Shown here: positions 44,386 through 52,171 of the stretch, piece after piece | Numbering within the stretch: the stretch's first letter is position 1 | Layout of the letters: every line of letters begins with the position of its first letter | DNA from: an uncultured Methylococcales bacterium | Lineage (GTDB): Bacteria; Pseudomonadota; Gammaproteobacteria; Methylococcales; Methylomonadaceae | Length of the DNA: 64,000 nucleotides | Assembly: GCA_903902705.1 (NCBI GenBank) | Contig: CAIUVX010000079.1 | Location: 1-64,000 of the forward strand | Reading direction: 5' to 3' | Notes under the pieces: model-generated | Database searches by the model: none | What the model saw: only the letters and a program-made list of their open reading frames with translations | What the model was told of the DNA's origin: nothing | Translations under genes and position numbers: made by a program

Positions 44386-44553
44386 CTAACTTCCTTGGCT
44401 GTTGTCTTGTCCGCACTCACTACTTTATTAGCCTTTGGCTTGTTGGCGATTAGTTCAACTGAAATTGTCCATGCGTTTGGTTTTACGGTCGCGGTAGGTA
44501 TACTAACCGCATTGTTAGGTGCGCCGTTGTTGGGTTTAACACGCAAAAGTTAA
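44386..44553 (+). pseudogene. C-terminal remnant of an MMPL/RND-type exporter
   Basis: Open frame LTSLAVVLSALTTLLAFGLLAISSTEIVHAFGFTVAVGILTALLGAPLLGLTRKS*; no upstream start, abuts the TIR element. Confidence 0.75.
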
Positions 44554-44582
44554 TGCTAAATACTGGGCGTTATGGGGGATGG

Positions 44583-47306
44583 ATGTTTGATAGAAAACAG
44601 TTTCAAGACGAAATTAAGGAACGGTTAAAAGATGTGCCTGAAGATAAGTGTGTAGCGTTTGCGGTACGTTCAGCGATGCGGGTGTTGCCACTGTTAGTAG
44701 CAACTACAAAAGGAGTATTTTTAAGTATGTTTACTGGGAAAAATCAAAATAGGGATGCGTTTTGGTTTTGGGAAACAAAATATAGAAACAAGTATTTACT
44801 GGTAGTATTCAAGGCTTATAGTTGTAGCATTGGATTCGTTTCAACGGGAATATGGGTCACCGACCCCTCCTCCGTTGCCGCTGCCGTCAGAGCTGTTGCC
44901 AGCACCAATGTCAACGCCGACTATGTTGCTCCCCACGTCATCAACGCAGCTAGCCCTAATGCTAACGCCACCGCTAATGCTTTCCTTGCCGCCAATAATG
45001 CCTTTCTTGCCGCCGACTATGATGACTATGGCTTTCTTGCCGCAGATACCGACGATATACAGATAATGCAACAGGGTCTGATAGAGGCAATGCAACAGGA
45101 CTTAGTGATGTTGAAAAAACTATCTATAGAGGAATTATTGTGGCAACCACTGTGGTTAAAGGCAGCCTCCAATAAATGGAAACAGTTATACTACGATTTT
45201 ATACAGGATGCCTTAAGTCTAAATGCTGGTTTTGATGTCTGGTTAGATTGGTATGATGATAGACTGCAAGGCAAGCGGATAGATGTTGAATTACTCAAAC
45301 AATGGAATAACATTCCTGAAGAAATTCAGGCTCAAGGTGCGGCGGAAGTTAATGCCTATCTTAAAAATCTGGTACAAAAAACCGCCGTACAACCGTTAAA
45401 CCGAGTCCGCGCAATTTTCCTCGGTTATGGTGAATCGGGTAAAACCTCATTAATCCGCACGTTACACGGTGAACCTGTCATGGAAGGCAAAGAAACCATG
45501 ACGGTGGGCATAGATATTCGTGAATGGTCTGTACCTGACAGCGATATTAAAGCCCATTTTTGGGATTTTGGTGGACAGGTGATGGCACATGCGACCCATC
45601 AATTCTTTTTACGTTCTTCGTGTTTATATGTGTTGGTGCTGAATGCGCGTAGTGAAATTGGTGGCACAGAACAAGCCGAATATTGGTTAGAGCATGTCAA
45701 AGGTTTTGGTAAAAACGCACCAGTGATGATCGTCGGTAATAAAGCCGATCTAGCCAGCATTAATTTGGATATGAGTTATCTCAAAAGCAAATATGCCAAT
45801 ATCGTTGATTTTTATCCAATTTCTTGTACACAGGCAAGCGCACAATTTAAGGCGAAGTTCGATAGTTTTAAACAGGATTTTTGCCAGCAATTACGCGACG
45901 TTGGCACTAACCAAATGCAGTTCACTAAAGAACAATTTGGCGTGTTGGAAGCGTTGCATCATTATTCGCCTCAATCGGCTTTTTTATCGCACCAAAAATT
46001 TATCGATATTTGCGCTGAACATGGCATTGGCACGGAAGGCGTACAAAACAGAGACTGGCTACTGGATATTTTGGATAAATTAGGCGTGGTGATTTATTTC
46101 CCCCAACTAGCCTGTTTGGACGACTATGTATTAAATCCGCGTTGGTTGACTCATGGCGTTTATACCCTAATGTACAAACAACAGCCACGCTTAACCCTGC
46201 GTGATGCGGTTGCCATTTTGCGTGATAAACCAATTAGTGACGAACAAGGTAACAAACTGGATTATCCAATGGATAAATGCCGCTTTATCATGGATGCGAT
46301 GCAGGAGTTCAAATTATGTTATTCGTTGCCGCATGACCGTAACACGTTAATTATTCCAGAATTATTATCCACCGATCAACCGCGTGATATTCCCTTTGAA
46401 CAATTCAAACGTGGGGCGTTAGCGTTTGAATTTGTGTTTCGTGGCTTTTTACCACGTCATATCATGCCTGAACTAATCGTCAATCATCATGAAGAAATTG
46501 TGAAAGACGTTGTTTGGCAACGTGGCGTATTGTTAAGAAATAAAAGCTATCAATCGCTGGCTTTATTAAAAGTGGATTATCATGAGCGGGTATTATCGAT
46601 TTGGGTAAAAAGCGGCGATGCTAGAGATTATCTCAGCCTGTTAAATAATGAAGTATTGCAAATATTGGGGCGGTTGGAGCTGGATTATAAAGAGTGGATT
46701 GCGTTGCCATTATCAGCCTGTATCAGTGATAAAACGCTAATCAGAAGCGAAGAAAAAGCCCCTTATCGGCAGATTTTGGCTTTCGCTAGAAAAGGAGAGC
46801 AAGTATATATTTCTGAATCGGGTTTAGAATATGATTTAGGAAAAGTTTTAGGTGTTATTTTATCCAAGGATGAGCAAGTAAAAGCAGGGATTATTAATGT
46901 TTATGGTGATTATGTAGGGGATAAAAAAGTGAGTGATATAAAAATAGAAATTGGTGATAACGCCAGAATCAATGGCTCAGTCGTTGCCGCTGAAAAAATC
47001 GAAAATAGTTTTAATAATTTAAAAGAATCCAAAGCGGATGATGCGGTGAAAGCGTTGTTAGAACAGTTATTAACTGAAATCAAAACCTTAAATACCAAAG
47101 TACCCGCCGCACAAGCGCAAGCAGTAGAAAATATGGCAAAACGTGCTGATACCTTGGTGACTGAAAGCAAAAGCGCGACACCCGATAAAGAATGGTATCA
47201 ACTCAGTTTTAAAGGGATTAAAGAAGCGGCTTTAGCCATAGGCGATGCAGCTAAACCCGTGCTGGATATTGCTGAAAAACTCAGTCCGTTATTATTAGGC
47301 TTGTAA
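44583..47306 (+). CDS. Roc-COR (ROCO-family) GTPase with unusual N- and C-terminal extensions (ORF track start 44553)
   Basis: FLGYGESGKTSLIRTL P-loop; HFWDFGGQ; IVGNKADL; COR-like LVGIYFPQ/DDYVLNPRWLTHGVY segment. Confidence 0.9.
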   Translation: MFDRKQFQDEIKERLKDVPEDKCVAFAVRSAMRVLPLLVATTKGVFLSMFTGKNQNRDAFWFWETKYRNKYLLVVFKAYSCSIGFVSTGIWVTDPSSVAAAVRAVASTNVNADYVAPHVINAASPNANATANAFLAANNAFLAADYDDYGFLAADTDDIQIMQQGLIEAMQQDLVMLKKLSIEELLWQPLWLKAASNKWKQLYYDFIQDALSLNAGFDVWLDWYDDRLQGKRIDVELLKQWNNIPEEIQAQGAAEVNAYLKNLVQKTAVQPLNRVRAIFLGYGESGKTSLIRTLHGEPVMEGKETMTVGIDIREWSVPDSDIKAHFWDFGGQVMAHATHQFFLRSSCLYVLVLNARSEIGGTEQAEYWLEHVKGFGKNAPVMIVGNKADLASINLDMSYLKSKYANIVDFYPISCTQASAQFKAKFDSFKQDFCQQLRDVGTNQMQFTKEQFGVLEALHHYSPQSAFLSHQKFIDICAEHGIGTEGVQNRDWLLDILDKLGVVIYFPQLACLDDYVLNPRWLTHGVYTLMYKQQPRLTLRDAVAILRDKPISDEQGNKLDYPMDKCRFIMDAMQEFKLCYSLPHDRNTLIIPELLSTDQPRDIPFEQFKRGALAFEFVFRGFLPRHIMPELIVNHHEEIVKDVVWQRGVLLRNKSYQSLALLKVDYHERVLSIWVKSGDARDYLSLLNNEVLQILGRLELDYKEWIALPLSACISDKTLIRSEEKAPYRQILAFARKGEQVYISESGLEYDLGKVLGVILSKDEQVKAGIINVYGDYVGDKKVSDIKIEIGDNARINGSVVAAEKIENSFNNLKESKADDAVKALLEQLLTEIKTLNTKVPAAQAQAVENMAKRADTLVTESKSATPDKEWYQLSFKGIKEAALAIGDAAKPVLDIAEKLSPLLLGL

Positions 47307-49045: not shown

Positions 49046-49110
49046 CAACCATACCCGTTTTTGTGCTTGTAACCCCATGCGCACTGAGCCTGCCGAATAG
49101 TGCTGTCTTA

Positions 49111-49201
49111 CAGTGTCGTAGGATGTGCCAACGATAAGAGGCGCATCATTCGTATCAACTCGAACGATGCGCTTCGTACCTCAGCACATCCTATCGCACT
49201 G
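49111..49201. repeat. 91-bp palindromic element (CAGTGTCGTAGGATGTGC ... GCACATCCTATCGCACTG)
   Basis: 18-bp imperfect TIRs plus nested GCGCATCATTCG/CGAACGATGCGC. Confidence 0.8.
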
Positions 49202-49234
49202 TTTATAGTTAAATAATTGGTGTTGTGTATTACA

Positions 49235-49307
49235 TAGGCTGGGATGATGCAAGGAATCCCAGTATAATCTCGACAACATACTGGGACTCGCAATTTATCT
49301 CAGCCTA
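49235..49307. repeat. 73-bp palindromic element (TAGGCTGGGAT ... ATCTCAGCCTA; nested CCCAGTAT/ATACTGGG)
   Basis: Inverted repeats visible directly. Confidence 0.75.
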
Positions 49308-49330: not shown

Positions 49331-50398
49331 ATGTCATTTGATTTATTAATCGATAGCTTGAGTAAACGCATTTCTTTTCATGTGATGAGAACAATATTAC
49401 ATCATCATAATATTAAAGTCGGTAGAAATTGGGATGGCACTATTGAAAAGTTTAAGTATATTCTTGATGAAGGTAGTGAAGAAAAAAAGGATAAATTAAT
49501 TGCAATATTAAACTCTGTTTATTTAGAACATCTAATCACAGGAGACAGGTCTGTTCATTTTTTTAAAGAAGATAAACAGACCATCATAAATATAATGGAG
49601 TATTTTAATAATTATAAAATTACTGAGTCATTATTTAAAAGCAATTACCCCTATTTATTAGATGATGTTGCATTAAATGATACTGAAAATAATACTTTTT
49701 TAGTCGATGTAATTAACTGTGAAGAAAAACAAGTATTAATTTTTTGCTCTAAGCGATTTATCAGAGAACGATTTGATATTCCACCAAGAGGCGATTTATC
49801 GGAATATTCTGAAATTATAGGTATCAAAAGACATAATAAACAATCCTTTGATATTATAGTTTTGCATCCATTGACGGAAACCATTGAAATTAGAGTTGAT
49901 GTTGGCAGTAAAGTGCCAGCTGATGATAGAAAAACATCCTTTATTAATATTAAACGTGCATTTCAAGAATTAGTGACTGGTTTTACAGGAACTCAATTTA
50001 TTCTTAATAATGTGGTTAATTTATTTCCTGTCATTAATAAGCTTTATTTGTCTGAAGGAGAAGGTCGTGTTTGTGAGTTAGCTTTTACAACTGATGGAAC
50101 AAGCTCTAATAAACATGAAAAAATGCGGCAGCGACATGAGTGTTTAAGAAGCGAGGCTTACCATAAGGGTGGGTTTGATGCTGTTGAAGGTCGGATTACA
50201 GCTTATAGAATTGCGGTAACTTGGGAGCATGGTACAGGAACATCGTTAGTCACAAAACCTGAGCTTTTTTTAGCGGGTTCTGCAACCATGTTAAGTCAGG
50301 AAGAACCAATTTTGACAGAGGCAATTATTACAGATTGTGCGGGTAAGGAAGATTATAATTTTGTGATTAGTAAATTGAATAGTTTCTTAGAGCAATGA
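49331..50398 (+). CDS. Unknown protein, first gene of three-gene accessory operon
   Basis: 355-aa ORF, ATGA overlap with next ORF; AT-rich; no family recognised. Confidence 0.7.
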   Translation: MSFDLLIDSLSKRISFHVMRTILHHHNIKVGRNWDGTIEKFKYILDEGSEEKKDKLIAILNSVYLEHLITGDRSVHFFKEDKQTIINIMEYFNNYKITESLFKSNYPYLLDDVALNDTENNTFLVDVINCEEKQVLIFCSKRFIRERFDIPPRGDLSEYSEIIGIKRHNKQSFDIIVLHPLTETIEIRVDVGSKVPADDRKTSFINIKRAFQELVTGFTGTQFILNNVVNLFPVINKLYLSEGEGRVCELAFTTDGTSSNKHEKMRQRHECLRSEAYHKGGFDAVEGRITAYRIAVTWEHGTGTSLVTKPELFLAGSATMLSQEEPILTEAIITDCAGKEDYNFVISKLNSFLEQ

Positions 50399-50817
50399 AC
50401 CAAAAACTTAAAAATCAAATCATTTCATATTTTGCCGAGGATTGGGGGGAATCATCACCTCAGTTCGAGGCGTGTACAAAGATATTTGATTATTTATTAT
50501 CTTATCCAGTAGATCAGTTGACGCACTTAACTTACAGCGTTTTAAAAAAAACAATTGGCGATAATTATTCAACTGCTGAGCTTTTGAAAGCAACTCAATA
50601 TTTATGTGGTGATAAAGTATCTCTTTTGTCTTTATATTTTGAAATTTCCGATGAAGATGATTACTATGTTGATATTAATTATGATGATATTAGATATGCT
50701 AGAAAAACTGGTAAATTAATTCATCCCCGTACAGGTGAAATTATTGAAGATTATGAAGCTAAAGTTTTTATTTATTTTAAACCAAGTTCTTTGATTAATG
50801 AGGTTCAAAATAGTTAA
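50395..50817 (+). CDS. Unknown acidic protein, second gene of accessory operon
   Basis: 140-aa ORF overlapping both neighbours by 1-4 nt. Confidence 0.7.
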   Translation: MNQKLKNQIISYFAEDWGESSPQFEACTKIFDYLLSYPVDQLTHLTYSVLKKTIGDNYSTAELLKATQYLCGDKVSLLSLYFEISDEDDYYVDINYDDIRYARKTGKLIHPRTGEIIEDYEAKVFIYFKPSSLINEVQNS

Positions 50818-51452
50818 TGCACAAAGATTTAAAAATAAGTTTGGAGACACTTAAAGATTTTCAAAATGATGTTGATGGAATAGGTAATTTCCCTGATCGT
50901 CTGCTTGCAAAGGATTATGAAGAATTCGTTTCTATTTTGTATGATGACATAAATAAAATCGTGATAGAGATGGAAAGGAATCTTGAGTTAAGAAAGAAAG
51001 ACGGGGAAGATCGATTAACGATTGAAATAAAAGGTAGTTTATGTCATTTTGGATACACGGCTGGGCATGATAATAAAATTGGCGGTCATTGTGATTTGAC
51101 GGTTGAAAAAAAGGAATGGCTATGGATAGGAGAGGCTAAGGTATTTGATAGTCGGGGTTATACATGGGTAAACGAAGGTTTTCAGCAATTGACAACACGA
51201 TATTCAACAGGTGGATATAACAATTGTCATGGGGCGATATTAATTTATATTCGTAAGCCTAATACCAAACAAATCATGGAAAATTGGAAAGCTCATTTAC
51301 TAGCAAATAATGGTGATGTAGAGAATCTTCAAGCTTTTGATTTCCTAGAAAAATCACTAATCTTTTGTTCAGAACATTCTCATCAAAGAACTGGTTTGCC
51401 ATTTAAAGTAAGGCATATTCCGTTTTGTCTTCATTTTGATCCAAAAAAATAA
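50817..51452 (+). CDS. Putative PD-(D/E)XK-superfamily nuclease, third gene of accessory operon
   Basis: GGHCDLTVEKKEWLWIGEAKVF (D-x(n)-ExK) followed by NEGFQQLTTRY. Confidence 0.6.
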   Translation: MHKDLKISLETLKDFQNDVDGIGNFPDRLLAKDYEEFVSILYDDINKIVIEMERNLELRKKDGEDRLTIEIKGSLCHFGYTAGHDNKIGGHCDLTVEKKEWLWIGEAKVFDSRGYTWVNEGFQQLTTRYSTGGYNNCHGAILIYIRKPNTKQIMENWKAHLLANNGDVENLQAFDFLEKSLIFCSEHSHQRTGLPFKVRHIPFCLHFDPKK

Positions 51453-51537: not shown

Positions 51538-51795
51538 ATGATAACTAAAAACGATTTAAAACAGGAAATTGAACAACTCGATGAGGGCTATTTAGAGTTA
51601 GTATTTAAGTTATTGCAGCAATTCCCACATCAACAAAAAATCAAGCCAATAATAGACCCATTAAGTTGTTCTCATCCTATTGATTATGATGTGGATGATA
51701 ATAACGAGCTAGTATTTACTGATATTGAAGATGCCGCTAGTTATGGAAAACAATTAAGACATTCTAGTTGGACAAGAAAAAATAACGATGCCTGA
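51538..51795 (+). CDS. Putative antitoxin of VapBC-type TA pair
   Basis: Small ORF overlapping the PIN-domain ORF by 8 nt; MITKNDLKQEIEQLDEGYLELVFKLLQQF. Confidence 0.7.
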   Translation: MITKNDLKQEIEQLDEGYLELVFKLLQQFPHQQKIKPIIDPLSCSHPIDYDVDDNNELVFTDIEDAASYGKQLRHSSWTRKNNDA

Positions 51796-52171
51796 GTATT
51801 TTCTTTGTGATACTTGCGTCATTATTGATTTTATGAACGGACGTAGCCAAGTATTAAACGATTTATTGCATCATGAAACAACGCTGTTTATTAATTCGAT
51901 TATTGAAATGGAATTATTGCAAGGCGCACATGATAAAAATGAATTGCGCATTATCGAGAAAAAACTACATTCATTTCGATTACTCGATATGCAACAAGCT
52001 ATTTTTGATTTAGCGACACAGTATCTACGCAATTACGGTTTATCTCATACCTTAGCGTTGCCCGATGCAATTATTGCTGCGACCGCTATTTATTATCAAA
52101 TGCCGTTATTTACTTATAATCGTAAAGATTTTAAGTTTTTACCTGATATTCAGTTAACAAATTTTCCCTAA
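51788..52171 (+). CDS. PIN-domain toxin (VapC-like)
   Basis: FLCDTCVIIDFMNG; NSIIEMELLQGA; LPDAIIAATAIYYQMPLFTYNRKDF. Confidence 0.9.
   Translation: MPEYFLCDTCVIIDFMNGRSQVLNDLLHHETTLFINSIIEMELLQGAHDKNELRIIEKKLHSFRLLDMQQAIFDLATQYLRNYGLSHTLALPDAIIAATAIYYQMPLFTYNRKDFKFLPDIQLTNFP

Follow-up and report, generated by a model that had tools for sequence, protein, structure and literature searches.

A candidate mobile defense cassette combining a predicted PD-(D/E)XK nuclease, a putative adaptor and a protein of probable RdgC/RexA fold

Three overlapping genes at positions 49331–51452 of the 64,000 nt Methylococcales sequence analyzed here (the window) form, with a probability of roughly 0.6, a mobile DNA-targeting defense cassette in which ORF1 would serve as the sensor, ORF2 as the coupler and ORF3 as the nuclease, and for which we infer anti-phage activity. 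The cassette is mobile, patchily distributed and co-inherited, resides at defense hotspots, and carries an immune effector domain; counted against the defense model is that the ORF1 version lacks a methyltransferase for discriminating self from non-self. A sequence-only reading of this DNA had already proposed a candidate undescribed defense cassette, and the proposal is borne out in part: no PADLOC model, those of 3HP included, matches the three proteins, and the occurrence of the nuclease in both NACHT-HEAT proteins and restriction-modification (R-M) systems makes a defense role likely.

All three genes lie on the forward strand: ORF1 (49331–50398, 355 aa), coding for the putative RdgC/RexA-fold DNA-binding sensor; ORF2 (50395–50817, 140 aa), coding for the putative adaptor; and ORF3 (50817–51452, 211 aa), coding for a predicted PD-(D/E)XK nuclease, the presumed effector. 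Their junctions are as first described, with a 4 nt overlap (ATGA) between ORF1 and ORF2 and a 1 nt overlap (TAATG) between ORF2 and ORF3. The cassette is also AT-richer than its flanks, as the sequence-only reading had it, with a GC content of 31.7% versus 42.2% for the window, the lowest among the sampled 2.1 kb stretches. No Pfam or NCBIfam model recognizes any of the three proteins; weak Pfam matches to DUF4424 (ORF1) and DksA_N (ORF3) fall far under the cut-offs and are ignored, and profile searches of the ORF1, ORF2 and ORF3 families against the PDB return nothing credible. Each protein does match a PHROG family of unknown function, ORF1 phrog_12777 (E=4e-66), ORF2 phrog_11490 (E=1e-26) and ORF3 phrog_9664 (E=1e-58), and the cassette therefore has homologues that have been clustered from phage genomes, though unexplained. 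The early impression that ORF1 and ORF2 match nothing is thus correct for Pfam, NCBIfam and PADLOC and incorrect for PHROG.

ORF3 is confidently predicted to be a PD-(D/E)XK nuclease with an intact active site. Its AF2 model, built with 31 sequences (pLDDT 92.9, pTM 0.89), has an alpha-beta-beta-beta-alpha-beta core composed of helix 64–77, strands 81–83, 94–98 and 101–110, helix 114–129 and strand 138–145, in which D93, E106-x-K108 and Q124 occupy the places expected for a PD-(D/E)XK fold. The active-site glutamate E64 (51006–51008) lies in the first core helix; D93 (51093–51095), the predicted metal-binding aspartate of a GHxD motif, at the start of strand 94–98; the (D/E)xK motif, E106-A-K108 (51132–51140), in strand 101–110; and the motif IV-like glutamine Q124 (51186–51188) in the following helix. 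E64, D93, E106, K108 and Q124 are invariant in 56 of 56 ORF3 sequences, with the qualification that the pattern used to scan for 40 of the loci covered the Q124 region, so that conservation of Q124 is partly selected and that of the other residues unaffected. Foldseek comparison to the PDB gives a best E-value of 0.027, with no match below 1e-3; the better matches, all weak, include an R2 retrotransposon (endonuclease) protein, Hjc, Cdn1, Can2 and AF1548, several of which are PD-(D/E)XK nucleases. The restriction-like nuclease motif of the sequence-only reading is present, and structure prediction sets it within a PD-(D/E)XK core.

ORF2 and ORF3 also occur in combination with other systems. 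First, in six cyanobacterial loci (L035, L036, L039, L042, L043 and L052), from which ORF1 and ORF2 are absent, ORF3 constitutes the C-terminal domain of proteins of ~1,000–1,200 residues that begin with a NACHT domain and contain HEAT repeats. These are candidate NLR-like defense proteins, and those that were scanned have no full-length PADLOC match. Second, Type ISP enzymes of Rhizobium sp. RM and of genome G589 and an MmeI-type enzyme of Rhizobium phaseoli all end in an ORF2-like domain and are followed by an ORF3 gene (L120:2457–8410, L051:3–4543 and L070:4594–8540). The ORF2 domain is detected in the three enzymes with E-values of 2.7e-16, 2.7e-12 and 2.8e-10, using a profile built without the R-M enzyme sequences. 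The native nuclease motifs of two of them, Mrr_cat_2 in L120 and MmeI_N in L070, look intact by eye; a role for ORF2-ORF3 as substitute for a lost R-M nuclease is thus not supported, and ORF3 is instead an added effector beside enzymes that appear to keep their own. These exchanges place ORF1 at the position of DNA recognition, ORF2 at the joint between recognition and cutting, and ORF3 in the effector position. The fusions to restriction enzymes, with ORF3 alongside, give ORF2 its putative role of adaptor and make ORF2-ORF3 look like a portable adaptor-nuclease module.

Distribution of the cassette was surveyed by tblastn and annotation for phages and plasmids, and by a GTDB contig scan for database loci. 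ORF1, ORF2 and ORF3 are present in that order in 31 of the 40 loci from the contig scan, and two further loci are fragments at contig edges. Gene order and sizes are constant in phages, plasmids and chromosomes of the Gamma-, Beta- and Alphaproteobacteria and the Cyanobacteria. Phages of Acinetobacter, Klebsiella and Moraxella carry the trio, as do plasmids of Calothrix, Pseudomonas, Vibrio, Pantoea, Klebsiella, Moritella, Enterobacter and Leclercia; a 14.8 kb Vibrio phage of the Vinavirales carries an apparent cargo trio immediately behind its integrase gene (L126:1351–3626), identified by position and size, with similarity confirmed for ORF3 only. Among 399 random genomes of the phylum, ORF3 is found in seven and ORF2 in seven, six of which are shared; the unshared ORF3 is at a contig end, and the unshared ORF2 matches weakly and is interrupted by stops. 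Across 34 loci, the protein distance matrices of ORF1, ORF2 and ORF3 correlate at r=0.87–0.88, a value reached in 0 of 999 permutations. Gene order, shared occurrence and mirrored trees all show the co-inheritance on which the sequence-only reading had depended. Relatives are present in 28 of 5,426 complete E. coli genomes, and in all three loci inspected the cassette lies between the P2-like genes A (replication) and Q (portal), a hotspot for many defense systems (Rousset et al., PMC9122126). P2-hotspot copies include those of NZ_CP026399 and NZ_CP048647, and WP_000148121, WP_001324710 and WP_016239485 are E. coli homologues. In two unrelated genomes, the trio adjoins a gene for a large GHKL-ATPase (HATPase_c_3) protein (L121:4882–7116 and L123:6570–8567), one of which has a weak HSDR_N-like region; these are possibly further conflict-system genes.

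Some of the plasmids that carry the cassette are small and mobilizable, with the cassette beside rep and parA, and in the window a VapBC-type pair adjoins it. Both observations would suit an addiction or toxin-antitoxin-like module, in which ORF3 is a DNA-cutting toxin that is silenced by ORF1 and/or ORF2 and maintains plasmids and prophages. Such a module is unlikely, as ORF1 and ORF2 are both unlike any antitoxin, and coupling of a sensor to an effector better fits the presence of ORF3 in NACHT-HEAT proteins without ORF1 or ORF2 and the fusion of ORF2 to R-M enzymes. The VapBC-type pair (51538–52171, forward strand), which the earlier reading identified correctly, consists of a PIN-domain VapC (PF01850, 1.4e-14) and the gene for an 85 aa partner, and lies downstream of and outside the conserved cassette. 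It was rejected as a cassette component because most of the related loci that were viewed have no such pair next to the trio; it is as AT-rich as the cassette and may have arrived together with it.

Two inverted repeats lie 5' of ORF1, at 49110–49202 and 49254–49289. Both palindromes are real, as reported at the outset, but are taken as neighbors unrelated to the cassette; the first is a copy of a REP-like dispersed repeat (~76 bp at 49119–49194). The repeat has 64 BLAST matches in its own 4-Mb genome, some places being counted on both strands, and is also found in the related genome G007; a role for the first palindrome as a regulatory or guide RNA element was rejected on this basis. Judging from the translations, we take the gene upstream of the cassette to be of cation-efflux type and that on the other side to be of argJ type. 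Genomes of the same genus contain this site without the cassette: in G001 one flank runs straight into the other, and in G006 the flanks are ~93% identical in DNA with ~1 kb of other sequence between them. ORF3 is absent from all seven other genomes of the genus and present in four of 201 genomes of the family, its own genome counted. A 917 aa Roc-COR GTPase (a ROCO protein with Roc, COR-A and COR-B domains) is encoded 2 kb upstream of the cassette at 44553–47306; this stretch and its counterpart in the closely related G006 have nearly equal lengths and no DNA similarity. The housekeeping rdgC of the host is located just past the window (C79:64347–65240), ~13 kb downstream of ORF1. Its proximity to the RdgC-like ORF1 is probably coincidental, because at least two other genomes of the genus also have rdgC close to argJ.

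Structure prediction suggests with fair confidence that ORF1 shares the RdgC/RexA fold, as a matter of fold and not of family membership. The AF2 model of ORF1 (pLDDT 92.7, pTM 0.90) has three E. coli RdgC chains as its top Foldseek matches in the PDB (E-values 4.9e-4, 9.8e-4 and 6.9e-3; probabilities 0.95–1.00 over 340–353 columns, the best match having 340 columns and probability 1.00), with TM-scores of only 0.33–0.43. Nothing credible besides RdgC is found in the PDB, and RexA (8TWQ) is not among the 50 matches listed. In BFVD, ORF1 has further full-length, weak to moderate matches to phage proteins, one of them annotated as an exonuclease. At the sequence level, profile-profile alignment of ORF1 with RdgC (hhalign, 21 RdgC sequences) gives a probability of 0.2–0.3%, indicating no homology, and ORF1, which has no Pfam match, is by sequence not a member of the RdgC family (PF04381). 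Similarly, ORF1 has no BLASTP similarity to RexA, no match to the PADLOC RexA model, and belongs to a different PHROG (12777 versus 12654). RdgC forms a ring-shaped dimer that binds DNA non-specifically, and the lambda exclusion protein RexA, likewise a non-specific DNA-binding dimer, has the same fold (PMC11077077). The modeled fold similarity makes ORF1 a probable DNA sensor. Of the arrangement originally envisaged, a nuclease with two sensor or specificity partners, the nuclease survives, whereas the partners are unequal, one of putative RdgC/RexA fold and the other adaptor-like.

The likeness to RdgC, a recombination protein, and the frequency of the cassette on phages and plasmids might alternatively point to a recombination or replication accessory, in which an RdgC-like protein and a nuclease aid phage or plasmid recombination, repair, or resistance to RecA/RecBCD with no part in defense. 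We regard this as improbable, to about the same degree as an addiction module: copies are found on chromosomes, plasmids and phages alike, the cassette sits at a cargo hotspot and not in replication modules, its effector is common to NACHT and restriction proteins, and its patchy distribution is typical for defense genes. Least probable, by a little, is restriction proper of a modification-dependent, Type IV-like kind, with ORF3 cutting DNA in which ORF1 reads a particular sequence or modification, since the replacement of ORF1 by sequence-specific R-M enzymes in rhizobia and the Type IV-like lack of a methyltransferase are set against an ORF1 without a recognized reader domain and RdgC/RexA proteins that bind DNA without sequence specificity (PMC11077077).

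A DNA-targeting defense cassette could operate as follows. ORF1 dimers would engage invading phage or plasmid DNA, probably recognizing DNA structure or topology and not base sequence; ORF2 would bridge the engaged ORF1 to ORF3; and ORF3, thereby recruited or activated, would cut either the DNA of the invader or that of the whole cell, the latter resulting in abortive infection. How the chromosome would be spared is a matter of speculation, one option being that ORF1 recognizes DNA ends or replication or recombination intermediates. A bolder formulation, to which we give somewhat less than an even chance, is that an RdgC/RexA-fold clamp has been turned into an immune sensor onto which a nuclease is loaded via an exchangeable adaptor, with ORF2-ORF3 also used by R-M enzymes and ORF3 by NACHT proteins. 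If the defense reading is correct, the cassette represents one more widespread uncatalogued defense family, and the RdgC/RexA fold gains a testable role as a nuclease-coupled DNA sensor, which bears on what RexA senses. An adaptor-nuclease module common to restriction enzymes and NLR-like proteins would also link two branches of bacterial immunity. Since P2-like prophages of E. coli contain copies of it, the cassette is directly testable in laboratory strains.

Comparisons with known systems indicate that the cassette is probably an uncatalogued defense system of the nuclease-effector kind. None of the three proteins matches a component model of PADLOC-DB 2.0 at E≤1, though models for gop/beta/cII and RexA are included. 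A full-text literature search, including RdgC together with defense or conflict systems, did not recover a description of the cassette; cassette homologues may nevertheless be among the candidates tested or listed in recent E. coli studies (DefensePredictor, PMC13092281; Brenes and Laub 2025; Rousset 2022). DefensePredictor reports 13 validated PD-(D/E)XK systems. Similar in setting is 3HP (Hp1-Hp2-Hp3), which acts against P1 (Rousset 2022, PMC9122126) and likewise comprises three genes without recognizable domains, located in the P2-like A-Q hotspot that also houses the cassette. The identity of the two, suspected from the shared hotspot, was rejected: the PADLOC Hp1, Hp2 and Hp3 models (333, 359 and 227 positions) match none of the cassette proteins at E≤1 and find no match in the genome containing the window or in phage KP12, which carries a relative of the cassette. 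The cargo of SopEPhi, considered as a possible source of 3HP, corresponds to PDC-M11AB plus ShosTA-like.

Four further comparisons define the features of the cassette. First, lambda RexAB is also a prophage-borne exclusion system with an RdgC-fold DNA-binding protein as presumed sensor; however, its effector is the membrane protein RexB, whereas the cassette has a nuclease and a putative adaptor, and ORF1, which is partnered by ORF2 and ORF3 and not by RexB, falls outside the RexA family. E. coli RdgC, whose fold the ORF1 model resembles without detectable sequence homology, is a stand-alone housekeeping gene that is present in the window's own genome as well. Second, the link to bNACHT or NLR-like defense proteins is the ORF3-type nuclease at the C-terminus of the NACHT-HEAT proteins of six cyanobacterial loci, but the cassette has no NTPase and its putative sensor is ORF1. 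Third, Type ISP and MmeI-type (IIG/IIL) R-M enzymes, in rhizobia and one further example, have an ORF2-like C-terminus and an adjacent ORF3, while the cassette contains no methyltransferase, helicase or target-recognition domain. Fourth, Hachiman, AVAST, Lamassu and DRT systems have repeatedly gained nuclease-protease pairs, where one effector pair likewise serves unrelated sensors, the nuclease being encoded on its own and its partner joined to the sensor (PMC12799240); these pairs consist of an MBL nuclease and a protease, in contrast to the predicted PD-(D/E)XK nuclease and putative adaptor of the cassette. Among these systems, the cassette is probably set apart by its unusual RdgC/RexA-fold partner and its portable adaptor-nuclease module.
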